From Pyxidicoccus parkwaysis (GTDB lineage Bacteria; Myxococcota; Myxococcia; Myxococcales; Myxococcaceae): 64,000 nucleotides of DNA. How positions within the stretch are numbered: position 1 is the first letter of the stretch; each line of letters starts with the position of its first letter. The stretch lies in the NCBI RefSeq assembly GCF_017301735.1, contig NZ_CP071090.1, forward strand, positions 5,446,001-5,510,000, written 5' to 3'. A model generated the notes under the pieces. It ran no database searches, was not told where the DNA came from, and saw nothing but the letters and a program-made list of their open reading frames with translations. Of this stretch, positions 11,062 through 53,133 are shown one piece after another. A program made the position numbers and the translations under genes.

Positions 11062-12570
11062 TCACCACCCGTTGTTGTACCCGGAGTGCCGCATCGAGCC
11101 ATCCGGGCTGACGTAGAAGACATCCAGCTGGCCCGCCGCCTTGCTCACGGCCTCCGGCGCGGAGGCCAGCTCACCGCCGCGCCACTGCCACCCGCTCCAG
11201 CTCGCGCCATTCCAGCTGTTCATCCACAGGTTGTTGTCCGTGCCCCGGGCGAACACGTCCAGCTGGTTCGCGCCCCGAGAAGCCACCGCGGGAGACGAGG
11301 TGAAGTTACCGCCCAGCGACGACCAGTCACTCCACGAGAGTCCGTCCCAGGACTTTTGATAGATGGCGTTGTCCGAGCCCCGCACGAAAACGTCGATGCG
11401 GTTGGAGCCCCAGCTCACCGCCGCCGGGTCCGACGTCAGGGTGCCGCCGAGCGGAAGCCACGCGCTCCACGTGCTGCCGGCCCAGAATGTCTGCCACAGC
11501 TGGTTGTCCGTGCCCCGGACGAACACGTCCATCCGGCTCGCGCCCCACGAGGCCACCGCGGGCCCCGAGGCAAAGCTACCTCCCAACGACGACCAGCCAC
11601 TCCACAGGAGTCCATTCCAGGACTTCTGCATGATGGAGTTGTCCGAGCCTCGCGCGAACACATCGATGCGGCTGCCGTCCCGGCTCACCGCCGCCGGGTC
11701 CGACGTCAGGGTGCCGCCGAGCGGGAACCACAAGTTCCACATGGCTCCGGTCCAGTACGCCTGCCACAGCTGGTTGTCCGTGCCCCGGGCGAACACGTCC
11801 AGCCGGTTCGCACCTCGCGCGGCCACCGCGGGTCCGGAGGTGTGATTGCCGCCCAGCGAATCCCAGGGAACGCCATACGTCTGCTGCGCTCCCTGTTGGT
11901 CCGTGGCGCTGAGGTTGCCATCCCCATTCCATTGCGGATTGCAGTAGTTCATCACCGAGCTCAGGTCCCACGGGCCGATGGTCAGGTCACCCGAGCTGCC
12001 CTGCGGAGGCTCGGTACAGGAGGACGGCGTGTCCGGACGATTCTGCTCGTGGGCGTAGCCCATGACGTGGCCGAACTCGTGCACCGCGATGGTTTCGATG
12101 CAGTACTGAAGCGTGTTTCTGCACGACTGGCCCCAGTTGTTGAACGTGAAGTTCAGCACCATGCCCTGGGCCCTGCCATTGACCCCGTTGCCCAGCACCT
12201 TCACATGGGGGCCAGCGTCGCTGATGTTGATGCGGAGGCCCTGGGAGGCCGCCGTGCAGGTGCCCCAGCCGGTGAAGCGAATACCGGAGCGGGTCTCCCA
12301 CGTACGTGCCACCGCGTCGCGCACCCACTGCCGCTGCGTGCCATCCAACAGCCCCGGGTTCTCCCAGCACACGGCCACGGTCATCGGCCGCCACAGCCGC
12401 GCGGAGGCCACATAGAGGTCCGCCTCGCTGTGGCGCATGCTCCCGGCGGGCGACGTGCCGGGTCCCTCGGACTCAGCCAGCTCCGCGGCGACGCCACAGC
12501 CGAGCAGTGTTCCCAATCCCAACGTCGCGACCAGCGCCGTGCCACGGCGGGATACAATTCCAATCAACAT
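11062..12570 (-). CDS. Secreted zinc metalloprotease with PLL-like lectin propeller
   Basis: The protein has 502 residues. The N-terminus is a lipoprotein-type signal (VATLGLGTLLGCG). A metzincin domain carries HEFGHVMGYAHEQNR (about residue 164; HExxHxxGxxH zinc site) and a later SSVMNYCNPQ turn that fits the Met-turn. From about residue 230 come six repeats of about 45 residues with alternating R-x-D-V-F-A/V-R-G-T/S-D-N-x-L/I-W/Y-Q cores, as in the Photorhabdus PLL-type fucose-binding beta-propellers. It probably degrades glycoproteins or cell-surface material outside the cell. GGAGG eight bases before ATG 12570 decides the start. The repeats are visible in DNA as about 135-bp units between 11130 and 11850. 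Confidence 0.85.
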   Translation of the reverse strand: MLIGIVSRRGTALVATLGLGTLLGCGVAAELAESEGPGTSPAGSMRHSEADLYVASARLWRPMTVAVCWENPGLLDGTQRQWVRDAVARTWETRSGIRFTGWGTCTAASQGLRINISDAGPHVKVLGNGVNGRAQGMVLNFTFNNWGQSCRNTLQYCIETIAVHEFGHVMGYAHEQNRPDTPSSCTEPPQGSSGDLTIGPWDLSSVMNYCNPQWNGDGNLSATDQQGAQQTYGVPWDSLGGNHTSGPAVAARGANRLDVFARGTDNQLWQAYWTGAMWNLWFPLGGTLTSDPAAVSRDGSRIDVFARGSDNSIMQKSWNGLLWSGWSSLGGSFASGPAVASWGASRMDVFVRGTDNQLWQTFWAGSTWSAWLPLGGTLTSDPAAVSWGSNRIDVFVRGSDNAIYQKSWDGLSWSDWSSLGGNFTSSPAVASRGANQLDVFARGTDNNLWMNSWNGASWSGWQWRGGELASAPEAVSKAAGQLDVFYVSPDGSMRHSGYNNGW

Positions 12571-13011
12571 GGTGTCTGCCTCCATCCTTCTTCGCAGGAC
12601 GGGACCGGAGTGGCCCCCCTCGTCCTGGCAAAGAAGTGGATGGGGCTTCTGCCAGATATCTTGACACACCCATAGTGAATACTGGATGTCGGTGTCGTTC
12701 TGTTGGGTTGGTTCGGATTGAAAGAATAAACTTCCAACCTTGGATTTCAATGCACATTGGAGATTTCGGCCGAGGCGCGTCTCCGTTTTCCACGGCGTCA
12801 GGCTAAGTGGTTTCCATGGGGCGGAAATGACATACGCCAAGCAATCGCCTGGGTTTCACGAACAGAGATGATCCGGGTGTCGTTGCTCGGCCAGTCGAGC
12901 ACGACCTTCTTCCGGGTGCTGTTGAAGGAAAATGCCCTCCCCGCTTCGATGTTACGGGCGGAGAGTGGATGGCGTTTCAGAGGGAGTCTCTACAGCGTGG
13001 CGGCGCGCGCA
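12571..13011. other. Gap without a supported gene
   Basis: The stretch between the protease gene start and the kelch fragment has only short frames with no recognisable product. Part of it (12650-12800) is richer in A and T than its surroundings and may carry the protease promoter, but no clear -35/-10 pair was found. Confidence 0.4.
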
Positions 13012-42752: not shown

Positions 42753-42881
42753 CACCCGGCTGTTACCCGCTGACACTTCGCCCCGTGCAGCGGCCGACGC
42801 TTCGGTGCCGTGTGCGTCAAGAGCTGGACGCGAGTGGTGCGCGCTGACGCAGCGATGACAGGCCGTGACTACCCAGAGGTC

Positions 42882-43559
42882 ATGGCAGCGTCTCCACGAG
42901 GCATCGAGTCACTGTTATTGGATGAACGTGTGAAGCCCCGGCTGCGGGGCCTCTCGCACCTGCTGGCGGCGGTGGCGGCACTGTGCGGCTGCGTCCAGCT
43001 CGCGCTGTCACCAGCGCGGGGCGCGCACTACGCGGCGGCCCTCGTATTCGGCATCAGCCTGGTCCTGATGTTCGGCGTGAGTGGCACGTACCACTGGCCC
43101 ACGTGGAGCCGCGCCGCGTACCTTCGGCTGCGCCGGTGCGACCATGCGGCCATCTACCTGCTCATCGCGGGCAGCTTCACGCCCATGGCCACGCTGGAGA
43201 CGCGAAGCGGCTGGAGCACGCCGCTGCTCTGGCTGATGTGGGGCTGTGCGCTGACCGGCGCGACGCTCGCGCTGCTGGGCATCTCCGCGTCGCGGGGCGT
43301 GCGCTCCGCGCTGTACGTCGCGCTGGGCCTGCTGGCGGCGCCGGTGGTGATGCAGCTTCCGGAGGTCATCGGCCCGGCGCGCGTGGCGGGGCTGGCGCTC
43401 GGAGGTGTCCTCTACGCGCTGGGCGCGGTGGTATACGCGCGCCGCTGGCCGGACCCGGTGCCCACCGTGTTCGGCTACCACGAGGTGTTCCACCTCATGG
43501 TCATCGCCGCGGCCGCCGTGCACTACGTCGTGCTCACCGACTTCCTGTGGAGCCGGTGA
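42882..43559 (+). CDS. Hemolysin III / PAQR-family membrane protein
   Basis: The protein has 225 residues with seven membrane helices. Family motifs: FGVSGTYHWPTWS, RRCDHAAIYLLIAGSFTPMA and YHEVFHLMVIAAAAVHY (paired His and Asp that bind zinc in PAQR folds). Function in bacteria is not settled. ATG 42882 is preceded by AGAGG; ATGs at 42855 or 42810 are possible. It converges on the end of the RiPP-like operon with a 13-bp gap. Confidence 0.85.
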   Translation: MAASPRGIESLLLDERVKPRLRGLSHLLAAVAALCGCVQLALSPARGAHYAAALVFGISLVLMFGVSGTYHWPTWSRAAYLRLRRCDHAAIYLLIAGSFTPMATLETRSGWSTPLLWLMWGCALTGATLALLGISASRGVRSALYVALGLLAAPVVMQLPEVIGPARVAGLALGGVLYALGAVVYARRWPDPVPTVFGYHEVFHLMVIAAAAVHYVVLTDFLWSR

Positions 43560-43572
43560 CGCCGGAGCCGGC

Positions 43573-44154
43573 CTACAGCGCGCGCACCATCACCGCCGGC
43601 AGGCCCGGCACCTTGAGGTACTCCACGCGCGTGGGGCGCATGGGGGCATCCGGCCAGCCCGGCCGGGCCAGCGCGGAGAGCAGGTCCGTCACCGGGTACT
43701 GGAAGGCCTCGACGTGCGTGGGCCCCGCCATCGGCTGCAGGCCCCATGCGAGGGCAATGCGCAGCCGCTCGCAACGGGCCACATCCGCCATGTACGCGGG
43801 CAGATTCCCGCGCGGGGCCGCCTCCAGGTAGTGGCAGAAGGCGATGGCCTCCTCGCGGTTGAGCAGCTCCGGGAGCGCGTCCTGGAGGAAGTCCTTCAGC
43901 ACCGCCAACAGGCCGGGCCGCACCGCGGGGTCCGCCCACGGCAGGTGCTCGTGCACACGCGACAGGCGGTGGCCGTCCAGCATCCGCCCCGCCCGCTCCA
44001 CCACGACGGCGTCCGCGCCCGCCAGCGCCTCGCGCTCACGCGGCGTCAGCGCGTACGGCGCCATGGCCGCGTTCGCGTCCTGCAACCAGGCCTCGCGGAA
44101 GCGTGCATCCACGTGCAGCCGCGCCAGTACCTCCAGCGTCTCGGAGTAACCCAT
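43573..44154 (-). CDS. Short protein after the MNIO gene, possible partner
   Basis: The protein has 193 residues and no signal. The N-terminus (EVLARLHVDARFREAWLQDA, then PYALTPREREALAG) is a small helical module with an F-R-x-x-W-L-x-D and L-T-P-R-E pattern; the rest is mixed helix and ends in an E-Y-L-K-V strand. MNIO enzymes usually work with a partner of about this size encoded next door (MbnC, TglI, ChrI, BufC), so the position fits, but the sequence does not let me assign one of those families. AGGA precedes ATG 44154. It is the last gene of the operon. Confidence 0.6.
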   Translation of the reverse strand: MGYSETLEVLARLHVDARFREAWLQDANAAMAPYALTPREREALAGADAVVVERAGRMLDGHRLSRVHEHLPWADPAVRPGLLAVLKDFLQDALPELLNREEAIAFCHYLEAAPRGNLPAYMADVARCERLRIALAWGLQPMAGPTHVEAFQYPVTDLLSALARPGWPDAPMRPTRVEYLKVPGLPAVMVRAL

Positions 44155-44166
44155 GATGTCGTCCTG

Positions 44167-45000
44167 TCAGGCCGCGCTCGCGCCGCAGCGCTCGAGGATG
44201 GCCCGTGCACGCGCGAGCTCCTCCACCAGCCGCGCGAAAGGCGGAAAGCCGCTGTCCATCTCGAAGTTCACCCCACGCACCGGACAGCGCGGCGCCACGT
44301 ACTCCAACAGCCGCCACACCTCCTCCGGCGACACGTTGGAGTGGCTGTCCACGTACACGCCCTCCATCGTCACCCCACCCGCCAGGTGAATCTGCACCAC
44401 CCTGTCCAGCGGGAGCCGGTCCACGAAGGCGTACGGGTCGAACTTGTGGTTCACCGCGTTGGCGTAGACGTTGTGCAAGTCCAGCAGCAGCCCGCAGTCC
44501 GCCTGCGTCACCACGCGGGTGAGGAAGTCCGCCTCGTCCAGCGTGCTGAGCGGCGTGTCGAACAGCCAGGCGATGTTCTCCACGATGAAGGGCAGGCCCA
44601 GCTCCGCCTTCACGCGGCGGATGTTGCGCACGCACGTCTCCAGCGCGTCCTCCGTGAAGGGCACCGGCGTGAGCGAGCGCACCGGCAGCTCGCCCGCGCG
44701 CGTGAAGCACAGGTGGTCCGAGTGCCACGCCGCGCGCGTGGTGGCGAGCATCCGCTTCAGGCTCGCCACGTAGTCCGGGCCGTCCACGCCGTCCGAGCCC
44801 ACCGACAGCTCCAGCCCGTGGCCCGCCAGCGGGAAGCGCTTCGCCAGCACCTCCAGCCGGCGCACCGTGTCCTCCGTCAGCGGGAAGAAGTGCTCGGGCA
44901 TCACCTCCAGCCAGTCCACGCCCGGGTTGCCCCGCGCGAGGTGCGGCTGGAAGTCCCAGCGGTAGCTGAGCCCGACGCCCAGGAACGGAATCGACGACAC
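44167..45000 (-). CDS. MNIO (DUF692) iron-dependent peptide oxygenase
   Basis: The protein has 277 residues. It starts IPFLGVGLSYRWDFQP as DUF692 proteins do. Metal-ligand motifs of the TIM-barrel MNIO family appear in order: PEHFF, HGLELSVGS, WHSDHLCF, VENIAW, LLLDLHNVYANAVNH, QIHLAGG, DSHSNVSPEEVW and NFEMDS. Known MNIOs (MbnB, TglH, ChrH, BufB) oxidise cysteine or other residues in short peptides made by neighbouring genes. Start is GTG 45000 with AGGAGG overlapping the upstream stop. It lies 10 bp from the methyltransferase and 12 bp from the partner-like gene. The nine CSCGGT peptides upstream are the likely substrates (inference). Confidence 0.88.
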   Translation of the reverse strand: MSSIPFLGVGLSYRWDFQPHLARGNPGVDWLEVMPEHFFPLTEDTVRRLEVLAKRFPLAGHGLELSVGSDGVDGPDYVASLKRMLATTRAAWHSDHLCFTRAGELPVRSLTPVPFTEDALETCVRNIRRVKAELGLPFIVENIAWLFDTPLSTLDEADFLTRVVTQADCGLLLDLHNVYANAVNHKFDPYAFVDRLPLDRVVQIHLAGGVTMEGVYVDSHSNVSPEEVWRLLEYVAPRCPVRGVNFEMDSGFPPFARLVEELARARAILERCGASAA

Positions 45001-45010
45001 GGCGTGCCTC

Positions 45011-45850
45011 CTACTTCTTCCTGCGCGCCATCACCTGGAAGTGCTGGCCCTGCAGTGCGTAGCCCTCGTGCGCGAGCTTCTCCTGCATCGCGATGATTTC
45101 ATCGCGCGCCGCCCACACGTCGAAGTCCGGGCCGCGCTCGGCCTGCATCGCCTCCAGCATCTCGAAGTACATGACGGGCTTGCCGAAAATCTCCTCCAGG
45201 TCCGCGCCCGCCGCCTTCACGCCGTCCTGCAGCTCCTGGATGGTGAACAGGTGCACCGGCAGGCCGTAGGGGCACTTGCCGCGGCCCGTGAGCAGCAGCT
45301 TCAGCGCCTCGGCCTTCTTGCCGTGCTTGAGCTCGAACATGAAGTGCTCGTGGCGGTTGTCCACGCCCATGATGACCGGGCCGCCCGGCTTCACCACGCG
45401 CACCAATTCGCTCATCGCCTTGGGGTACTGGTCCAGGCAGTAGGACACCGGGTCGCCCTCGCTGAAGACGAGGTCGAACTCCGAGTCCTTGAAGGGCAGG
45501 TCCGCCACCGTGCCCTCGATGAAGGAACAGCGCTCCAAGAGCCCCTTCGAGCCGAGATATGCCCTGGCCGAGTCCAGCATGCCCGCGGAGATGTCCAGCA
45601 CGGTGACGTTGTGGCCAGCCTCCGCGAAGCGCGCGCTGAACTTGCCGCCGCCGCCGCCCGCGTCCAGCACGCGCCACGACGTGCCGGCCGGAGGCAGCAC
45701 CTTCTCCACGGCCTTCCAGGTCAGCTCCTCGTAGACCACCCAGAACAGCTTGTGCGCCGCCTTGGTGTACTTGTTGTCGTTGTACGTCGACGACACCTGG
45801 TTGTAGCAGCTGGAGATGTCCTGCGGCTGCGGCGTATTGGCGGTGCTCAT
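45011..45850 (-). CDS. Class I SAM-dependent methyltransferase
   Basis: The protein has 279 residues. Motif I is VLDAGGGGGKFSARF, the acidic loop VTVLDISAGMLDSAR, motif II FDLVFSEGDPVSYC and motif III LVRVVKPGGPVIMGV. The substrate-binding C-terminal part shows no specific family. In this operon it could methylate the modified peptide (thiol, carboxylate or amide); inference. GGAG lies before ATG 45850. Confidence 0.85.
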   Translation of the reverse strand: MSTANTPQPQDISSCYNQVSSTYNDNKYTKAAHKLFWVVYEELTWKAVEKVLPPAGTSWRVLDAGGGGGKFSARFAEAGHNVTVLDISAGMLDSARAYLGSKGLLERCSFIEGTVADLPFKDSEFDLVFSEGDPVSYCLDQYPKAMSELVRVVKPGGPVIMGVDNRHEHFMFELKHGKKAEALKLLLTGRGKCPYGLPVHLFTIQELQDGVKAAGADLEEIFGKPVMYFEMLEAMQAERGPDFDVWAARDEIIAMQEKLAHEGYALQGQHFQVMARRKK

Positions 45851-45871
45851 GACGGGTTCACTCCGGGCACT

Positions 45872-47992
45872 TCAGTACGTGAAGGAGATCTTCGAGAGGA
45901 TGCGGCGTTCCTGCGAGCCGTTGAAGGGCTGGTCCGAGTACACGAAGAACAGGTCGCTCCAGTCGCGGTAGTGCCAGCCGAAGACGGCGTCCAGCAGCGT
46001 GCCCTTCACGTTGCTGTAGTCGGCGAGCTCGGACACCGCGCCCTGCTGGAACGTCACGCGGGTGTAGAGGTTGGGGTTGAACTGGTAGCGCAGCTGCGCG
46101 TAGCCGCTCCACGAGTGGCCCGTGCCGGAGGTGCCGTACAGCTCGCTGTTCTTCGGCACGTCCTTGCTCTCCGTGTAGAAGCCGCTGAACTTCGCCTGGA
46201 GCCGGTTGCCCATCTTGATGTTGAGCGCGCCGTTGACGCCGCGCGTGGGGCCGCCGAGGAAGTTACCGGTGAAGGCCGTCAGCGTCAGGCTCTGCCAGTC
46301 GTTGGGGAAGAGGATGAAGCCGCCGGTGGCGATGCGGTCCTTGAAGCCCTCGTTGTCGTCGTAGACGTAGTCCGCGTAGAGGGCGAAGTTGTGGTGCAGG
46401 TACGGCTGCACGTTGACGCGGTTGCGCAAGCGGGTGCGCACGTGCTCGTGGTCGCGGCGCCAGAGGCTGTCCCACGTGAGGTTGACCTGCGGCAGGAAGC
46501 GCAGCTTGGGGAACGGCGTCAGGTACAGGTGCGTGTTGTAGCCCTGCTTGTCGAGCACCGGCGTGTAGCCCAGCGGGTTGGCGTAGCGCTTGCCGATGTC
46601 CTCCAGGTGGATCCAGAACTCGGAGTTGGTGTCGAAGCGGTGGATGGCGATCTTGTACGCCTCCGAGTCCTTGTGGCCGGCCACGTCGCTCCAGCTCTTC
46701 AGAATCTGCGCCTGGACGAAGAGCTCCTCCCAGATGTGGATGTTGGCGTCGAGGCCGGTGGTGCGGAACCAGCCGTACTTGTCACCCTTGCGGCTCACCG
46801 CGATGAGGTTGATGGCGGAGCGCTTGCCGATGTCCTGCTGGAGGCGCAGCACGCCGGAGTTGAGGTTCTCCCGCTCGTTGCTGCCGTCGCCCGGGTCGTC
46901 CCGGTGCTGCACGTCGAGGAGCGCGAAGCCCAGGCCGCCCACCTTGCCGGTGAGCTGCGCGCCGCCGAGCACCTGGTCGTGCGGCTTCATGGCGATGCGG
47001 CGGGAGGTGAAGATCTTGATGGGCGCGAGGAAGAGGTGCTCGCTCTCCACGAAGAAGGGACGGCGCTCGGGCAGCAGCGGCTCCTCGGTGTCCAGCAGGA
47101 GCCGGTCCTGGTCCGCTTCCACGTCGGAGAAGTCCGGGTTGGCGGTCAGCTTCAGGGCCACGTTGGGCGTCGGGTCGATGCGCGCATCGAAGCCGGCGTT
47201 GGGCTTGAACACCTTGCGGGACGCCGTCGTCTGGAGCGCGACGTCCGTGGCCACGTACGGGGTGATGCTCCAGCTGCGGCGGCCTTCGATGTTCTTGAGT
47301 CCCTCCAGGTGCGGGAAGCGGCTCACCTTGGCGCTGTTGACGCCGTCCGGCGTCCAGTTGCTCCACTCCTGCGTGCGCGCCTGCTCGCGGTCCAGCATGA
47401 GGCCGAACGTCACCTCCTCCGTCGAGGGGAACTGGAAGTTGGCGAAGGGGATGCGGACCTCGGAATACCAGCCGTCCTCGGTGATGGAGCCCATGGACTC
47501 CCACTCACCGGCCCACGACGTGGTGAAGGCCTCGCCGTCCGCGACGATGCGGCCGTCGGTGCGCACGCCCAGCGGGTTGGTCCAGAAGTAGTACGCGTTC
47601 CGGTGGTCCTTGAACGTGTCCAGCATCACCGTGACGTTGTCCTCCTGGTGGAGGAAGGACTCGTTCTGGACGCTGTACGCGGTGATTTTCGACGGGTCCT
47701 TGTCCAGGCAGTGGAACAGGACGTACAGGTTCTTCTTGTCGTAGAGGATGCGGACCTTGGTGTCGTCACGCGCGGGGTTGCCGTAGTCGATGCGCGTGAG
47801 GTGCCAGCCCGAAACCTCCGGGGCCGTCTGCCACACGGCCTCGTCGGGCTTGCCATCGATGGTGATGGGCTCGCTCGTGAAGGTGGCCTTGTAGTTGTAG
47901 TACTGCTTGTCTTCGGGCGAATCAGCGAGGGCCAGGGTCGGCAGACACGCGAGGAAGAGCGCGGCGCCCCAGGTACAGGTCGACGTTTTCAT
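45872..47992 (-). CDS. DUF5916-type outer-membrane barrel with CBM9-like front
   Basis: The protein has 706 residues. A Sec signal (ALFLACLPTLALADS) is followed by a CBM9-like sandwich (about 35-200; TIDGKPDEAVWQTAPEVSGW) and then a long series of amphipathic strands with alternating aromatic residues, ending ILSKISFTY. A final aromatic residue is typical of proteins inserted in the outer membrane by BamA. ATG 47992 overlaps the MFS stop (ATGA), tying it to the operon. It could move the peptide product through the outer membrane or catch a ligand. Related proteins are of unknown function. Confidence 0.75.
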   Translation of the reverse strand: MKTSTCTWGAALFLACLPTLALADSPEDKQYYNYKATFTSEPITIDGKPDEAVWQTAPEVSGWHLTRIDYGNPARDDTKVRILYDKKNLYVLFHCLDKDPSKITAYSVQNESFLHQEDNVTVMLDTFKDHRNAYYFWTNPLGVRTDGRIVADGEAFTTSWAGEWESMGSITEDGWYSEVRIPFANFQFPSTEEVTFGLMLDREQARTQEWSNWTPDGVNSAKVSRFPHLEGLKNIEGRRSWSITPYVATDVALQTTASRKVFKPNAGFDARIDPTPNVALKLTANPDFSDVEADQDRLLLDTEEPLLPERRPFFVESEHLFLAPIKIFTSRRIAMKPHDQVLGGAQLTGKVGGLGFALLDVQHRDDPGDGSNERENLNSGVLRLQQDIGKRSAINLIAVSRKGDKYGWFRTTGLDANIHIWEELFVQAQILKSWSDVAGHKDSEAYKIAIHRFDTNSEFWIHLEDIGKRYANPLGYTPVLDKQGYNTHLYLTPFPKLRFLPQVNLTWDSLWRRDHEHVRTRLRNRVNVQPYLHHNFALYADYVYDDNEGFKDRIATGGFILFPNDWQSLTLTAFTGNFLGGPTRGVNGALNIKMGNRLQAKFSGFYTESKDVPKNSELYGTSGTGHSWSGYAQLRYQFNPNLYTRVTFQQGAVSELADYSNVKGTLLDAVFGWHYRDWSDLFFVYSDQPFNGSQERRILSKISFTY

Positions 47993-49287
47993 CCGGGCTC
48001 CTGAGATGGGGTGAGGACGGGGGTGTGGGTTACAGCGGCCGGCGCGGAGCGCTCGGGAGCCCAGGCCATGCCGGCCAGGGACAAGAGCAACGCACCGGAA
48101 GACAACAGGAAGGCACTGGACAGCCCGGCGTGCCGGGCCACGAAGCCATAGGTGAGCGGGGCGAGCACCTGCGCGAGCGCCGCGCACCCGCCGAGCGCGC
48201 CCAGGAAGCGGCCGCGCTCCGAGGTGGGGGCCACCTCCACCACCACCGCCTGCGCGGAGGGGCGGTGCAGGCCGTCCGGCACCGCGAGCAGCGCCCACGA
48301 CACCACCATGACGGCGAGGCCGTACGGCGCGGGCAGCCAGCCGGAGAGGCCGAGGATGCCGCTCATGAGCACCATGCCCGCCAGGCCCGCGAGGATGATG
48401 CCGTTGCGCTTCTGCAGCCCGTCCGACAGCCGCCCGCCGAAGGGCTGGGCGAAGGCGTAGACGAGCCAGGAGACGGCGACGAGCGGCCCCACCGCCTCCG
48501 ACGGCGCGCCCAGCTTCATCGCGTAGAGCGGGATGTAGATGGGGAACAGGTTGAGCGCGAAGGCGAAGAAGAACTGCCAGGCGAACAGGCCCGCCAGCCG
48601 GGGCGCGCCGCGCACGTAGTCCACCGGGGCGCGCACCGCGTCCAGCGCCAGCTTCCACCCGCCGCCCTGGGCGCGCGCTTTGGGCGCCTCACGCGCGGGC
48701 TCCTCCAGCCTCAGGAGCAGCAGGCTGCTGACGAGGAAGAGCGCGCCGGCGAGGAAGAAGGTGTACTGCGTGGACAGCAGGCGGATGACGAAGGCGGAGG
48801 CGCCCAGCGCGAGCACGAACATCAGGCTGGTGCTCGCGTCCAGCAGGGCGAAGATGGTGGCGCGCTTCTGCTTCGGCGCGAAGTCCGCCACCAGCGCGCC
48901 ATTCACCGGCTGCGCGCTGCGCTGCAGGAGCAGCTTCAGCGACAGCGCCGCGGCCAGCGGCAGCGGGTGCGCGAAGAGCGCCATCACCGGCACCAGCAGC
49001 GACGTCACGAGCGACAGGCCCACCACGAAGCCCTTGCGGCTGTAGCGGTCCGACAGCGCGCCCATCACCGGCTGCAGGAAGATGGGCACCAGCGAGCCCA
49101 CCGAGTACACGAGGCCGATGCCCTGCAAGTCGAGCCCGCGCGACTGGAGGTACAGCGGCATCACCGGGTTGAGCAGACCGCCGGCCACCGTGCCCACCAG
49201 GCCCGACACCATCAGCACGCGCAGGTTGCCCAGCCCGCGCGTCAATTCGTACATCTCGCGCACCGCGCGAAGGCCCCGGGAAATCAT
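47989..49287 (-). CDS. MFS transporter, probable peptide exporter
   Basis: The protein has 432 residues with 12 membrane helices. GALSDRYSRKG is the MFS loop 2-3 motif and GGRLSDGLQKRNG its counterpart in the second half. It resembles drug-efflux members. Its ATG overlaps the stop of the Lon-like gene and its stop overlaps the barrel gene start (both ATGA), so stoichiometric expression is likely. In a peptide operon it would export product across the inner membrane (inference). Confidence 0.88.
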   Translation of the reverse strand: MISRGLRAVREMYELTRGLGNLRVLMVSGLVGTVAGGLLNPVMPLYLQSRGLDLQGIGLVYSVGSLVPIFLQPVMGALSDRYSRKGFVVGLSLVTSLLVPVMALFAHPLPLAAALSLKLLLQRSAQPVNGALVADFAPKQKRATIFALLDASTSLMFVLALGASAFVIRLLSTQYTFFLAGALFLVSSLLLLRLEEPAREAPKARAQGGGWKLALDAVRAPVDYVRGAPRLAGLFAWQFFFAFALNLFPIYIPLYAMKLGAPSEAVGPLVAVSWLVYAFAQPFGGRLSDGLQKRNGIILAGLAGMVLMSGILGLSGWLPAPYGLAVMVVSWALLAVPDGLHRPSAQAVVVEVAPTSERGRFLGALGGCAALAQVLAPLTYGFVARHAGLSSAFLLSSGALLLSLAGMAWAPERSAPAAVTHTPVLTPSQEPG

Positions 49288-49916
49288 GCCGCCACCCCAC
49301 TGGAAACCGTCGTGGCCGCGCCCGCGGACGGACGCAGCGGAAGCGTGCCGAGCACGGACTCGGCGGCCACCGTGAGGCTGGGGACGGGACGCACGTCCAG
49401 CGCGCTCAGCGGCGCGGCGTCCCACTGGCTGCCCGCGGGCACCCAGACCGGCACGCGCCCGGCGGACGCATGGACCTGGCGCACGTAGGCGTCCGCGGCG
49501 GCCAGCTTGCCCTGGAGCTTTTCGAGCGGCGCGGGCACCAGGGCCTCGCTGCCGTCGAGCGCCACTCCGGTGGCGAGGAAGGGAGAAGGCACTTCGCGGC
49601 CGGCGAGCAGCGCCACCCACGCGACGAACAGCGGCAGGGACGCGCTGCGCCCGTCCAGCGTCACCTTGCGGCCGCGCACGGAGAAGAAGAAGTCCGTCTC
49701 GTCCCACGGCAGCGCGTAGCGCCCGAGGCCCACGGCCTTCAAGTGGCGCAGGTGCTGCTGCCAGGCCGGCGCGTAGCCGGTGTCACGCGACAGGTCCACC
49801 CAGAGCCGGCCTTCGCCCGGACGCACCGCCACGTCGACGGACACGAGCCGGAACAGCGGCGCGCCATGGAGGTCCGCCTGGGTGAGCAGCAGCAATGGCG
49901 TGGACGAGGAGGGCAC
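49284..49916 (-). CDS. Lon-like (S16-fold) protein without ATPase
   Basis: The protein has 210 residues from GTG 49916; GTG 49967 would add 17 residues but falls inside a hairpin. The middle reads VTLDGRSASLPLFVAWVALL, then REVPSPFLATGVALDGSEAL and LEKLQGKLAAADAYV. This matches the Lon protease domain layout: a D-G-x-S-A-x nucleophile region, the T-G-x-x-x-D-G strand and the catalytic Lys in x-K-L-x-A-A, but no AAA+ domain is attached. It may trim peptide leaders or only bind peptides. It follows the last peptide gene and overlaps the MFS gene. The family call is from pattern memory, not alignment. Confidence 0.6.
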   Translation of the reverse strand: MPSSSTPLLLLTQADLHGAPLFRLVSVDVAVRPGEGRLWVDLSRDTGYAPAWQQHLRHLKAVGLGRYALPWDETDFFFSVRGRKVTLDGRSASLPLFVAWVALLAGREVPSPFLATGVALDGSEALVPAPLEKLQGKLAAADAYVRQVHASAGRVPVWVPAGSQWDAAPLSALDVRPVPSLTVAAESVLGTLPLRPSAGAATTVSSGVAA

Positions 49917-49955
49917 GATGGGAAGCGGAACGGGAAAAGGGTTGGTGAGGACACA

Positions 49956-49990
49956 GGCGGGACGCACTTCCGAAGAGAGTGCTTCCCGCC
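49956..49990 (-). promoter_or_regulatory. Hairpin after peptide 9
   Basis: GGCGGGA-x-GCACT pairs with AGTGC-x-TCCCGCC around a nine-base loop (12 pairs, one mismatch). It begins 12 nt after the peptide 9 stop and covers a possible GTG start of the Lon-like gene, so it could lower translation or stabilise the peptide mRNA. No T-run follows. Confidence 0.6.
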
Positions 49991-50002
49991 CGTGAGCCGC
50001 GA

Positions 50003-50101
50003 CTACTCGGCGACGGTGCGCACCGTGGTGGTCATGGTGCCGCCGCAGGAGCACTTGTCGGAGGAAGCGGCAACGCGAACGATCTGAGCCTTGACGTACA
50101 T
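50003..50101 (-). CDS. Precursor peptide 9 (32 aa, CSCGGT family)
   Basis: The common N-terminus MYVKAQIVRV, AASSDK and CSCGGT is followed by the tail MTTTVRTVAE. AGAGG stands before the ATG. It is the last of nine copies; 35 bp and a hairpin separate it from the 49967 GTG of the Lon-like frame. Confidence 0.85.
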   Translation of the reverse strand: MYVKAQIVRVAASSDKCSCGGTMTTTVRTVAE

Positions 50102-50134
50102 GGGAGACCTCTTGTGTGGGGTGTGATTGAGAGG

Positions 50135-50166
50135 CAGCCACGGCCCGGCGAGCCGAACCGTGGCTG
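50135..50166 (-). promoter_or_regulatory. Hairpin after peptide 8
   Basis: CAGCCACGG and CCGTGGCTG form a perfect nine-base stem around a 14-base loop, beginning 16 nt after the peptide 8 stop. Confidence 0.55.
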
Positions 50167-50182
50167 GTGCTGCCGGTGACGA

Positions 50183-50278
50183 CTACTCCGCGACCTGCAC
50201 CGTGGCGGTCATGGTGCCGCCGCAGGAGCACTTGTCGGAGGAGGCGGCAACGCGGACGATCTGGGCCTTGACGTACAT
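50183..50278 (-). CDS. Precursor peptide 8 (31 aa, CSCGGT family)
   Basis: Same conserved front as copy 1 (MYVKAQIVRV, AASSDK, CSCGGT) and the tail MTATVQVAE. GAGAG lies upstream. Eighty-one bases with a hairpin separate it from copy 9. Confidence 0.85.
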   Translation of the reverse strand: MYVKAQIVRVAASSDKCSCGGTMTATVQVAE

Positions 50279-50366
50279 GGTTGTTCTCTCTCGTGGTGTT
50301 GCGGGTTGGGCCCATCCCACGGCCCGGCGAACCGGACCGCGAGTGGGGTGCTTCAATCCGGCGGGA

Positions 50367-50388
50367 GCGGGAAGGTCACCCTCCCCGC
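50367..50388 (-). promoter_or_regulatory. Hairpin after peptide 7
   Basis: On the minus strand GCGGGGAGG pairs with CCTTCCCGC (one wobble) around GTGA, beginning 14 nt after the peptide 7 stop. Confidence 0.55.
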
Positions 50389-50402
50389 CCCACCGGAGAG
50401 GA

Positions 50403-50504
50403 CTACTCCGCCGTGCTGTTGGACAGCGCCGCGGACATGGTGCCGCCGCAGGAGCACTTGTCGGACGACGCGGCAACGCGAACAATCTGAGCCTTGACGT
50501 ACAT
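50403..50504 (-). CDS. Precursor peptide 7 (33 aa, CSCGGT family)
   Basis: Conserved front and tail MSAALSNSTAE, the most polar tail of the set. GGAG lies eight bases before ATG 50504; an in-frame ATG two codons upstream overlaps that site and is less likely. At DNA level its conserved part is the same as copy 6, pointing to recent duplication. Confidence 0.85.
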   Translation of the reverse strand: MYVKAQIVRVAASSDKCSCGGTMSAALSNSTAE

Positions 50505-50547
50505 GGTCATTTCTCCAGGTGTTGCGGGTTGAGGGTTGCTGCTTGGA

Positions 50548-50649
50548 CTACTGGACGACCGCGGCGCTATCGGCCAGGGTCATGGTGCCGCCGCAGGAGC
50601 ACTTGTCGGACGACGCGGCAACGCGAACAATCTGAGCCTTGACGTACAT
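50548..50649 (-). CDS. Precursor peptide 6 (33 aa, CSCGGT family)
   Basis: Conserved front and tail MTLADSAAVVQ. One of two copies ending in Gln instead of Glu. GGAG lies eight bases before the ATG. Forty-three bases separate it from copy 7, without a hairpin. Confidence 0.85.
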   Translation of the reverse strand: MYVKAQIVRVAASSDKCSCGGTMTLADSAAVVQ

Positions 50650-50691
50650 GGTCATGTCTCCAGGTGTTGCGAGTTGACGGCGGGGAGCCGA

Positions 50692-50787
50692 CTACTGCAC
50701 CACCGCGGTGTCGAGGCTCATGGTGCCGCCGCAGGAGCACTTGTCGGAGGAAGCGGAAACGCGAACGATCTCGGCCTTCACGTACAT
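50692..50787 (-). CDS. Precursor peptide 5 (31 aa, CSCGGT family)
   Basis: Front MYVKAEIVRV (Glu6 for Gln) then SASSDK (Ser11 for Ala) and CSCGGT; tail MSLDTAVVQ, ending in Gln. AAGGAG precedes the ATG, the best ribosome site of the array. Confidence 0.85.
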   Translation of the reverse strand: MYVKAEIVRVSASSDKCSCGGTMSLDTAVVQ

Positions 50788-50839
50788 GGTGAATCTCCTT
50801 CGTGGTTGAGTTGGGTTGAGTCGTTGAACCGCGCCGGGA

Positions 50840-50938
50840 CTACTCAGCGACGGTGGCGGTGCTGATGGTCATCGTGCCGCCGCAGGAGCACTTGTCGGAC
50901 GACGCGGCAACGCGGACGATCTGAGCCTTCACGTACAT
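50840..50938 (-). CDS. Precursor peptide 4 (32 aa, CSCGGT family)
   Basis: Conserved front and tail MTISTATVAE. CGAGG precedes ATG 50938. Fifty-two bases without a hairpin lead to copy 5. Confidence 0.85.
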   Translation of the reverse strand: MYVKAQIVRVAASSDKCSCGGTMTISTATVAE

Positions 50939-51020
50939 GGTGAACCTCGTTGGGTTGGGGGTTGAACCCGCCCGCGCTCCAGGGTGAGCCGGCACGCGGC
51001 GCGGGGTACTGCGTACGGCA

Positions 51021-51045
51021 CGGGCGGAAGGCAGACCTCCGCCCG
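51021..51045 (-). promoter_or_regulatory. Hairpin after peptide 3
   Basis: CGGGCGGAGG pairs with CCTTCCGCCCG (ten pairs with one wobble) around a short loop, 11 nt after the peptide 3 stop. The stem sequence is nearly that of the hairpin after peptide 2, so the two are related by duplication. Confidence 0.6.
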
Positions 51046-51056
51046 CTCCGTGACTA

Positions 51057-51149
51057 CTACTCGAGCACCCTGACAGTGGTCATGGTGCCGCCGCAGGAGC
51101 ACTTGTCGGACGACGCGGCAACGCGGACGATCTCGGCCTTCACGTACAT
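51057..51149 (-). CDS. Precursor peptide 3 (30 aa, CSCGGT family)
   Basis: Front MYVKAEIVRV (Glu6), AASSDK, CSCGGT; tail MTTVRVLE. CGAGG precedes the ATG. A hairpin follows the stop within 11 nt, and 118 bp separate it from copy 4. Confidence 0.85.
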   Translation of the reverse strand: MYVKAEIVRVAASSDKCSCGGTMTTVRVLE

Positions 51150-51238
51150 GGTGAACCTCGTGGGACTTCGGGTTGAGCTTTCCCATCCACGTCCCGGAGA
51201 ACCGGGCGCACGAGCCAACAACCAGGCTGAAACGAAAT

Positions 51239-51267
51239 CGGGCGGAGAGGAGGTCCCTCTCCGCCCG
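51239..51267 (-). promoter_or_regulatory. Hairpin after peptide 2, attenuator-like
   Basis: CGGGCGGAGAGG and CCTCTCCGCCCG form a perfect 12-base stem with a five-base loop, 10 nt after the peptide 2 stop. The minus-strand sequence after it (ATTTCGTTTC) is mildly T-rich, so it might end part of the transcripts. Confidence 0.65.
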
Positions 51268-51277
51268 AACCATCGAA

Positions 51278-51370
51278 TTATTCGATGGACGTGCGCACGG
51301 TCATCGTGCCGCCACACGAACACTTGTCGCTGGAAGCAACAACACGAACAATTTCGGGCTTGATGTACAT
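51278..51370 (-). CDS. Precursor peptide 2 (30 aa, most diverged copy)
   Basis: Front MYIKPEIVRV (Ile3, Pro5, Glu6), VASSDK, CSCGGT; tail MTVRTSIE, stop TAA where the others use TAG. Its codons are much less GC-rich (GTT, TGT, ATT) and many synonymous sites differ, yet the CSCGGT block is unchanged. That is strong sign of selection on the motif. AGAGG precedes the ATG and a 12-bp-stem hairpin follows the stop. Confidence 0.85.
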   Translation of the reverse strand: MYIKPEIVRVVASSDKCSCGGTMTVRTSIE

Positions 51371-51416
51371 GGGCGTCCTCTTTCGGGGTGTGGAGGGAAG
51401 AAGCAACAGGGACGGA

Positions 51417-51509
51417 CTACTCGGCGACGACGAGGACCGACATGGTGCCGCCGCAGGAGCACTTGTCGGAGGAAGCGGCGACGCGAACGATCTGGGCCTT
51501 GACGTACAT
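51417..51509 (-). CDS. Precursor peptide 1 (30 aa, CSCGGT family)
   Basis: First peptide gene after the PqqD-like gene. Front MYVKAQIVRV, AASSDK, CSCGGT; tail MSVLVVAE. GAAGAGG precedes ATG 51509. No signal sequence is present, so any leader must be the short conserved front itself. The only two cysteines are the CSC pair, the expected target of an MNIO enzyme (inference). Confidence 0.87.
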   Translation of the reverse strand: MYVKAQIVRVAASSDKCSCGGTMSVLVVAE

Positions 51510-51580
51510 GGTGAACCTCTTCGGGTTGGGGTTGGCCTGTGCAGTGAAACACCGCGTTCCGCGTCACAGGCTGCGTATGC

Positions 51581-51662
51581 GTTTTATTAAAAAATAAAAC
51601 ACACACATTCGGGGCTCTTCGCGCAAAGCGCTGCCATGGCCATACGAGCCAGGGGAAGAGCC
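51581..51662 (-). terminator. Hairpin and T-rich tract between PqqD-like gene and peptide 1
   Basis: On the minus strand GGCTCTTC (51662-51655) and GAAGAGCC (51620-51613) form an eight-base stem over a 34-base loop that contains a smaller GCGC hairpin. A TTTTATTTTTT tract follows at 51600-51583, itself part of the palindrome GTTTTATT-TTTT-AATAAAAC. It resembles an intrinsic terminator or attenuator, and its AT-richness is striking in this genome. The peptide array may have its own promoter here, but I could not define one. Confidence 0.55.
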
Positions 51663-51694
51663 GGATTCGTATCTACAGAGGGGGATGAGACGTG

Positions 51695-51973
51695 TCAGGA
51701 GACGCTGGAGGGCTCGCAGAGCCCCAGCTCCTGGAACTGGGTTACAGTACTCCGAACGTCTTCAGCGATTTCCTGTATCGGTGCGGATTCACCCATTCCG
51801 CGGGAGAGGGCCTGCACCGCGTCCTCGAGCGTGCCACCACTGCGGCACAGCTCGAAGATGCGAGCGGCGGTCTCATTCACCCGGAAGACCTCGCCACCCT
51901 CGGTGTCCATGAGGAAGAACGCATCCTGCTGCTGCTGGACGATGACACCGGCCGCTGCTCGTGGAAGGACCAA
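51695..51973 (-). CDS. PqqD-like peptide-recognition (RRE) protein
   Basis: The protein has 92 residues, the usual PqqD size. It reads AGVIVQQQQDAFFLMDTEGG, then VFRVNETAARIFELCRSGG and ends with IAEDVRSTVTQFQELGL. The layout (beta strands, V/L-N-x-T-A/G-x-x-I-x-x-L, then D-V-x-x-x-V-x-x-L-x-x-x-G-L) is that of PqqD, which binds RiPP leaders and hands them to modifying enzymes. Start is TTG 51973 with AGGAG eight bases upstream. No radical SAM partner is adjacent, so it may serve the MNIO or methyltransferase. First gene after the promoter at 52061. Confidence 0.85.
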   Translation of the reverse strand: MVLPRAAAGVIVQQQQDAFFLMDTEGGEVFRVNETAARIFELCRSGGTLEDAVQALSRGMGESAPIQEIAEDVRSTVTQFQELGLCEPSSVS

Positions 51974-52060
51974 GGTGCGCTCTCCTGGTGACCACGGCTT
52001 TCCCCGCCCCTGCTCCGAACCCCCTGAGACCCGGTCAAGCCGTGCTTCTTTATTTCCGTG

Positions 52061-52089
52061 TTTCTAAATCCTTCCATTCATATAGTCAA
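52061..52089 (-). promoter_or_regulatory. Sigma-70-type promoter of the peptide operon
   Basis: On the minus strand TTGACT (52089-52084) is followed after exactly 17 bp by TAGAAA (52066-52061). The stretch is AT-rich against the GC-rich surroundings. Transcription would start near 52054, about 80 nt before the PqqD-like gene. Confidence 0.65.
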
Positions 52090-52149
52090 TACCTGACGGA
52101 CCCAGAGGTAGAAATGACCTCAACCTCGTGATTTCTCAGGCTGAAACAG

Positions 52150-52207
52150 GAAGGCCCTCGCAGGTGACGCATCGCATGCAGGCGGTGCGTCAATCTGGAG
52201 GGCCTTC
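52150..52207 (-). terminator. Compound hairpin after menB
   Basis: An outer stem GAAGGCCCTC / GAGGGCCTTC (10 bp) encloses an inner stem TGACGCA / TGCGTCA (7 bp). It begins 33 nt after the menB stop and lies upstream of the peptide operon promoter, so it should insulate the two. Confidence 0.7.
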
Positions 52208-52239
52208 TCGGGGGTGACTTCTACAGGTTCGCAGGTGTG

Positions 52240-53133
<894 letters not shown>

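Follow-up and report, generated by a model that had tools for sequence, protein, structure and literature searches.

Layout of the cassette

The window analysed here is a stretch of 64,000 nucleotides from Pyxidicoccus parkwaysis (contig NZ_CP071090.1, positions 5,446,001 to 5,510,000), and its minus strand carries, at window 43573-51973, what is very probably a complete pathway for a family of ribosomally synthesised and post-translationally modified peptides (RiPPs), centred on a multinuclear non-haem iron-dependent oxidative enzyme (MNIO). In transcription order the cassette comprises a PqqD-like gene, nine peptide genes, an S16-like gene, an MFS gene, a DUF5916/CBM9 barrel gene, a class I methyltransferase gene, the MNIO gene and a gene for a 193-residue protein (Table 1). 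The original prediction had placed this gene set here, in one order and on one strand, and the open reading frames (ORFs) confirm it. The MFS_1, Methyltransf_25 and CBM9_1/DUF5916 matches all exceed their Pfam cut-offs.

The genes are closely packed. The two ATGA overlaps that had been noticed lie at the S16/MFS (49284-49287) and MFS/barrel (47989-47992) junctions, and the gaps from barrel to methyltransferase to MNIO to the last gene measure 21, 10 and 12 bp, within the predicted spacing of 10-35 bp. This spacing does not extend to the last peptide and the S16-like gene: the start favoured by the orthologues, GTG at 49916, leaves 86 bp, while an upstream GTG at 49967 would leave 35 bp. An AGGAG precedes the TTG start of the PqqD-like gene. 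Rfam gave no match within 43000-53000.

Table 1 Features of the cassette and its edge in the window.
Feature	Position	Strand	Evidence or remark
PqqD-like stand-alone RiPP recognition element (RRE), 92 aa, TTG start	51695..51973	-	PF05402 E 1.4e-12; orthologue heads every intact cluster
Precursor peptide 1, MYVKAQIVRVAASSDKCSCGGTMSVLVVAE	51417..51509	-	
Precursor peptide 2, MYIKPEIVRVVASSDKCSCGGTMTVRTSIE	51278..51370	-	
Precursor peptide 3	51057..51149	-	
Precursor peptide 4	50840..50938	-	
Precursor peptide 5	50692..50787	-	
Precursor peptide 6	50548..50649	-	
Precursor peptide 7	50403..50504	-	
Precursor peptide 8	50183..50278	-	
Precursor peptide 9	50003..50101	-	
Stand-alone Lon-type (S16) domain protein, 210 aa, Ser91/Lys137 dyad, candidate precursor peptidase	49284..49916	-	hhalign to Lon P-domains
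MFS exporter, 432 aa	47989..49287	-	PF07690 E 1.5e-48
Predicted outer-membrane barrel, CBM9-like N-terminal domain, signal-peptide-like N-terminal stretch, 706 aa	45872..47992	-	DUF5916 E 6.4e-9, CBM9_1 E 1.1e-8
Class I S-adenosylmethionine (SAM)-dependent methyltransferase, 279 aa	45011..45850	-	PF13649 E 1.5e-21
MNIO (MbnB_TglH_ChrH family), 277 aa	44167..45000	-	PF05114 E 2e-80
Predicted MNIO partner, PME-type-2-like: Os1348-like N-terminal helices, DUF2063-like helices, truncated RRE	43573..44154	-	AlphaFold2 and fold search
Upstream stretch between the PqqD-like gene and the enoyl-CoA hydratase stop codon, cassette edge	51975..52239	.	Flanking genes 34-858 bp apart in several cassette-free relatives

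The precursor peptides

The nine peptides are 30-33 residues long and share the pattern MY..[AQE]IVRV.AS.DKCSCGGTM, followed by a variable tail of 7-10 residues. Residues 1-23 are near-invariant (MYVKAQIVRVAASSDKCSCGGTM), and from residue 24 onward the sequences vary, with endings that are mostly AE, VQ, LE or IE. Each peptide matches profiles of its own genome's set at E of about 1e-16 to 1e-21, no Pfam or NCBIfam family matched any of them, and a GA-rich Shine-Dalgarno-like stretch precedes most of the nine ORFs. Over the first 23 codons the ratio of non-synonymous to synonymous change is 0.11 among the nine window copies and 0.07-0.14 against four relatives of the same genus. Since synonymous change far exceeds amino-acid change in this part, we conclude that the peptides are translated and selected; the ratios between genera (0.4-0.9) were left unused because all-against-all comparisons of diverged arrays under concerted evolution are hard to interpret. 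A chance array of ORFs was ruled out by the profile matches in 22 genomes and by the purifying selection in leader and CxC.

Across genera the motif becomes MYxx[AS][EQ]I[VA]R[VI][SA]A..D[KTS]C[ST]C[GS]xxM, with R9, A12, D15, C17, C19 and M23 invariant. The nine genes of 30-33 codons are present as predicted and belong to a family that recurs in 22 genomes; the CSCGGT by which they had been recognised holds within this genus but widens to K/T/S-C-[ST]-C-[GS]-x-x-M beyond it. Clusters contain 2-9 copies, and in one genome (G041, L074:6385-7131; L105 in the metagenome-assembled genome (MAG) Zod_Metabat.575) a single frame fuses seven units as a polyprotein. At its joins a unit ending in ...AE runs directly into IKRVSATTDKCTCSNGM..., which matches both the [AS][EQ] that stands before I7 in the stand-alone peptides and their C-terminal AE or AQ. 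This coincidence suggests a repeat unit IxRV..DKC[ST]C..GM..AE and a putative cut between [E/Q] and I. We infer that the functional unit begins at Ile7, that the MYxxA[EQ] ahead of it can be removed, and that one peptidase could form both ends.

Several further observations concern the arrays. In G015 a 128-bp peptide gene unit stands six times in tandem, nearly identical each time (L075, about 12227-12994), which marks a recent array expansion. Two Corallococcus genomes carry orphan triplets of related precursors adjoining an SDR gene (L089:6711-7289 and L090:6689-7301, minus strand); these have two additional cysteines near the C-terminus (e.g. CTCSNGMTVILTCNGLQEC) and lie on 8.9 kb contigs without an MNIO. 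In the window, palindromes resembling repetitive extragenic palindromic elements (CACGGCCCGGCGARCCGRRCCG) are found among the peptide genes at 50139-50160, 50318-50339 and 51188-51209, and the sequence has five window matches over both strands, against 0.3 expected. Between the PqqD-like gene and the first peptide lie a GC palindrome, CCTGTG...CACAGG (51536-51570), with good conservation across the genus, and an AT palindrome, GTTTTATTaaaaAATAAAAC (51581-51600), which differs among relatives; both are possible regulatory or leader elements.

The MNIO and its partner protein

The MNIO belongs to its superfamily by a wide margin (270 bits to PF05114, cut-off 25). Its best NCBIfam models are BufB (211 bits, cut-off 310) and HvfB (199 bits, cut-off 360), both below threshold, whereas another MNIO elsewhere in the same genome is of the BufB type and scores 319 bits, above that cut-off. 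The MbnB and ChrH equivalogs are far from reached (21.9 against 325 bits and 67 against 600 bits, respectively). Alignment to the HvfB-type structure 3bww and to 8hci shows that the enzyme keeps its metal-ligand blocks as well as the Asp for which a role as catalytic base has been proposed. We then read the positions of FonB from the 3bww alignment, with numbering and roles taken from PMC12668002: the cassette enzyme has YRW, in which Arg15 is kept and Arg16 is replaced by Trp, and MDS, in which the base Asp is kept and Phe250 is replaced by Ser. The Arg15/Arg16 plus Phe250 signature of the Lys-Cys group is consequently incomplete in this enzyme.

The last gene matched no family above its cut-off, PF09836 included, so that it does not answer to the PME-type-1/DUF2063 definition of captophorin partners. 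Its product was modelled with AlphaFold2 from 11 sequences (pLDDT 89.1). The best match among solved structures is TglI (Foldseek E 9.6e-4, Z 9.6), followed by NGO1945 (3dee; Z 8.4, 3.1 A over 123 residues) and MbnC (Z 5.0-5.3), all of which are MNIO partners; Os1348 matches the N-terminal helices. The protein is also homologous to the C-terminal domain of a natural MNIO-partner fusion (L175-L178; blastp E 9e-7, hhalign 1.3e-7), a region that in turn matches the partner ApyI. A comparison with the DUF2063 profile is weak (P 0.027), and the assignment was decided by the fold search and the fused relative. Following the MNIO gene, without a DUF2063 signature and related in predicted structure to NGO1945 or TglI, the last gene is, judged by its modelled fold and this homology, an MNIO partner of the PME-type-2 kind, as that kind is outlined in PMC12452194.

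The fusion proteins belong to another MNIO system of the Myxococcaceae that also appears to be undescribed (L175, L176, L177 and L178, from G038, G059, G036 and G022; e.g. L178:4548-11498, minus strand). They are 590-630 aa long and come from the closest outside relatives. Their loci encode a glycosyltransferase of the GT4 type that ends in a PqqD domain and an asparagine-synthase-like amidotransferase, to which L175 and L178 add a UGT-like glycosyltransferase, and the precursor has 65-75 aa and the form VETEEFKLEMLDCGP...C[FI]SC.CGS.CLCG. This second system may yield a glycosylated Cys-rich RiPP.

The Lon-type and PqqD-like proteins

The S16-like protein has no Pfam match, and its relation to Lon was established by profile comparison. 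Against 31 Lon P-domains, hhalign gave P 1e-5 and a score of 41.5, compared to at most 29.5 in 100 column shuffles, and the alignment with the Lon proteolytic domains runs end to end, with DGRSAS opposite DGPSAG and the LQGK Lys opposite the catalytic Lys of LKEK. S91 and K137 are invariant in all 18 aligned orthologues, and a search with the S16-like profile also picks up Lon proteases of other genomes (E 1e-6). By sequence, the protein therefore qualifies as a Lon S16 P-domain with the Ser-Lys dyad and is a putative peptidase, which sustains the Lon-like label first given to the gene.

The PqqD-like protein scores 48.2 bits against PF05402 (cut-off 23.4). A role in pyrroloquinoline quinone biosynthesis was ruled out, as the PQQ_PqqD equivalog gives 18.5 bits against a cut-off of 46.

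Distribution and boundaries

We examined 96 genomes of the family Myxococcaceae, which are predatory soil bacteria, and 195 genomes of the phylum in all. The original prediction had named co-occurrence of the peptides with the MNIO gene as a test, and the outcome supports it. Close MNIO orthologues (74-93% identity) occur in 23 of the 96 family genomes, the remaining family MNIOs reaching at most 46%, and the nine-peptide profile is positive in 22 of the 96: peptides are found in 22 of the 23 genomes with the orthologue and in none of the 73 without it. The sole mismatch (G019) has its MNIO on a 6.2 kb contig that ends inside the MFS gene. The S16 profile recovers the identical 22 genomes; its other matches are all weak and lie in long frames, two of them coinciding with listed Lon C-terminal domains, and it finds no relative in plasmid records. 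The peptide family was not found in the rest of the 195 phylum genomes. Carriers include Pyxidicoccus caerfyrddinensis, several Corallococcus, Citreicoccus inhibens, a Myxococcus sp. and Myxococcaceae MAGs, and gene order is identical in all intact copies.

The cluster has the same two neighbours here and in four relatives: on one side an hlyIII-type gene (42810-43559; the name was assigned from sequence and not by a family scan), on the other an enoyl-CoA hydratase-type gene (from 52240). Both neighbours are present in 27 of 27 genomes of the genus. Where the cluster is missing they can be nearly adjacent, separated by 34 bp (G057), 858 bp (G079) or about 0.5 kb (G060, G063 and others), and in more distant genus members they lie apart. 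Near-adjacency of the flanking genes where the cluster is missing argues that the cassette is a discrete unit of about 8.7 kb whose genes appear to have been gained or lost together.

A proposed pathway and its alternatives

Across species, the precursors are linked to a modifying enzyme, an RRE, a candidate peptidase and a predicted exporter, the linkage expected of a RiPP cluster. We hold it to be very likely that the cassette is a self-contained biosynthetic unit for a RiPP family and represents a genuine, apparently undescribed MNIO class. Gene content, conservation, linkage and the fold or family of each protein are as described above; from them we infer a modification chemistry, a cutting site, an export route and a function. 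Nine short leader-core peptides (elsewhere 2-9) would be translated, and both the stand-alone PqqD-type RRE and the partner's truncated RRE would bind their conserved I-V-R-V strand. MNIO and partner would oxidise Lys-Cys-[Ser/Thr]-Cys, the likeliest outcome being that one cysteine or both become a 5-thiooxazole-type ring, and the methyltransferase would methylate the result, perhaps at the newly placed sulfur. The N-terminal segment would be cut off by the Lon-type Ser-Lys peptidase, with [Glu/Gln]|Ile as the probable site, and the MFS protein and the outer-membrane barrel would export the products, a peptide mixture with a common modified Cys-x-Cys head and a variable tail.

Oxidation to 5-thiooxazole is our leading guess, held at slightly less than even confidence. 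It is favoured by analogy, since the nearest characterised MNIOs, BufB and HvfB, put this ring on Lys-Cys motifs (PMC12668002) and the peptides here carry DKC[ST]. Several points weigh against this pathway. The MNIO falls outside the captophorin/bufferin equivalog, and the replacement of Arg16 and Phe250 implies a substrate pocket that differs from that of the Lys-Cys captophorin group, which leaves room for other Cys chemistry. Unlike in captophorins, the precursors have no Sec signal and the partner no DUF2063 signature. The methyltransferase matches no RiPP-specific NCBIfam family above cut-off. The S16-like protein lacks an ATPase domain, and AlphaFold2 on its single sequence gave a pLDDT of 39, for which reason the model was set aside in favour of the profile comparison.

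The altered pocket bears most directly on the alternative that the MNIO performs another known Cys chemistry, namely the oxazolone/thioamide formation of methanobactin, the carbon excision of pearlin or a chryseobasin-like rearrangement with S-methylation. We regard this as a serious contender, if a somewhat doubtful one. The partner fold is nearest to TglI and also resembles MbnC, and two nearby cysteines with a methyltransferase recall chryseobasin, where ChrH macrocyclises and S-methylates, as outlined in PMC12636315. On the other hand, the MNIO lies far under the MbnB and ChrH cut-offs, and ChrH is itself described as SAM-dependent whereas the cassette has a separate methyltransferase. The Cys of TglA is C-terminal, unlike the internal cysteines of the peptides here.

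With regard to the S16-like protein, its Lon-type fold could instead serve in binding or as a scaffold and not as a peptidase, the N-terminal segment being kept or removed by a host protease. The missing ATPase domain and a sequence too divergent for Pfam speak for this, but S91 and K137 fall on the catalytic Ser and Lys of Lon and never vary among the orthologues, and the fused polyprotein needs cutting into units, so we consider a scaffold role unlikely. Finally, that the peptides are metallothionein-like copper/zinc micro-proteins whose CxC...M binds metal unmodified, with the adjoining enzymes acting elsewhere, is very improbable: CxC and the invariant Met make a plausible soft-metal site and two genomes have the orphan triplets with extra cysteines and no MNIO on their contigs, but the linkage with MNIO, partner, PqqD and S16 in fixed order across 22 genomes speaks against it, and it leaves two RRE-type proteins without a reason.

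Returning to the RiPP pathway, its product may plausibly serve in soft-metal (copper) binding or in antagonism. Binding of copper or another soft metal would be in keeping with the CxC...M head and the captophorin precedent (PMC12668002); a varied set of secreted peptides could equally be antagonistic. The full picture, combinatorial peptides with a methylated, Cys-derived heterocyclic C-x-C head that are freed by a stand-alone Lon-type peptidase cutting between [Glu/Gln] and Ile on single peptides and polyprotein alike, is a tentative one.

MNIOs carry out some of the most unusual peptide chemistry, and most of the family is uncharacterised. The cassette is compact (about 8.5 kb) and occurs in named myxobacteria that are in culture (Pyxidicoccus, Corallococcus, Citreicoccus), and it offers natural substrate variants in which a fixed recognition and CxC block is joined to varied tails, plus a natural polyprotein. 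Co-expression can thus directly test the substrate rules, what two RRE-type proteins do in a single pathway, how methylation proceeds and whether a Lon-type peptidase matures RiPPs.

Comparison with known systems

In the open-access literature, where hits were mostly judged by title or abstract, we found no described cluster with this precursor motif, PqqD, Lon-type protein and methyltransferase, and no S16 peptidase devoted to RiPP maturation. The original prediction of an undescribed MNIO class stands in this respect. The nine-fold array alone is not what is new, because an MNIO cluster with several precursors, an MFS gene and a protease gene has been described before (pbs, with four precursors; PMC12257519) and nine copies are one case of 2-9 or a polyprotein. 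MNIO partners without a DUF2063 signature are also already known.

The adjamnio families of an MNIO landscape survey (PMC12452194) are alike in having, as outlined there, undescribed Cys-motif precursors without a Sec signal and PME-type-2 partners. The survey covered ORFs directly before the MNIO gene, the place taken in our cassette by the methyltransferase gene, and its main text mentions neither PqqD nor myxobacteria. Chryseobasin (ChrHI) is likewise a Cys-containing RiPP with methylation and an enzyme of the MNIO family, but the ChrH score is low and the cassette methyltransferase is separate and of class I. Pearlin/3-thiaglutamate (TglHI) provides the nearest partner fold; the cassette differs by its internal rather than C-terminal Cys, and a peptide aminoacyl-tRNA ligase was not seen in it. 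In methanobactin (MbnABC) an MNIO modifies Cys of a short leader-core peptide, with a related partner fold and export genes, but the MbnB score here is minimal, and methanobactin has a single precursor and a different gene set.

The biphenomycin-like pbs cluster (PMC12257519) shares several precursors, an MNIO with an RRE partner, an MFS transporter and a dedicated protease; its Phe hydroxylation, B12-radical-SAM cross-link, TldD-type protease and four FRF-motif precursors have no counterpart in the cassette. Captophorins, bufferins and oxazolin (BufABC, HvfABC, FonABC) resemble it in the pairing of MNIO and partner, in the Lys-Cys substrate motif and in providing the best NCBIfam models. They differ by the sub-threshold score of the cassette MNIO, its replaced FonB Arg16 and Phe250, and the Sec signal, DUF2063 signature and DoxX that the cassette does without, whereas the cassette adds PqqD, S16, methyltransferase, MFS and barrel proteins and many short precursors.

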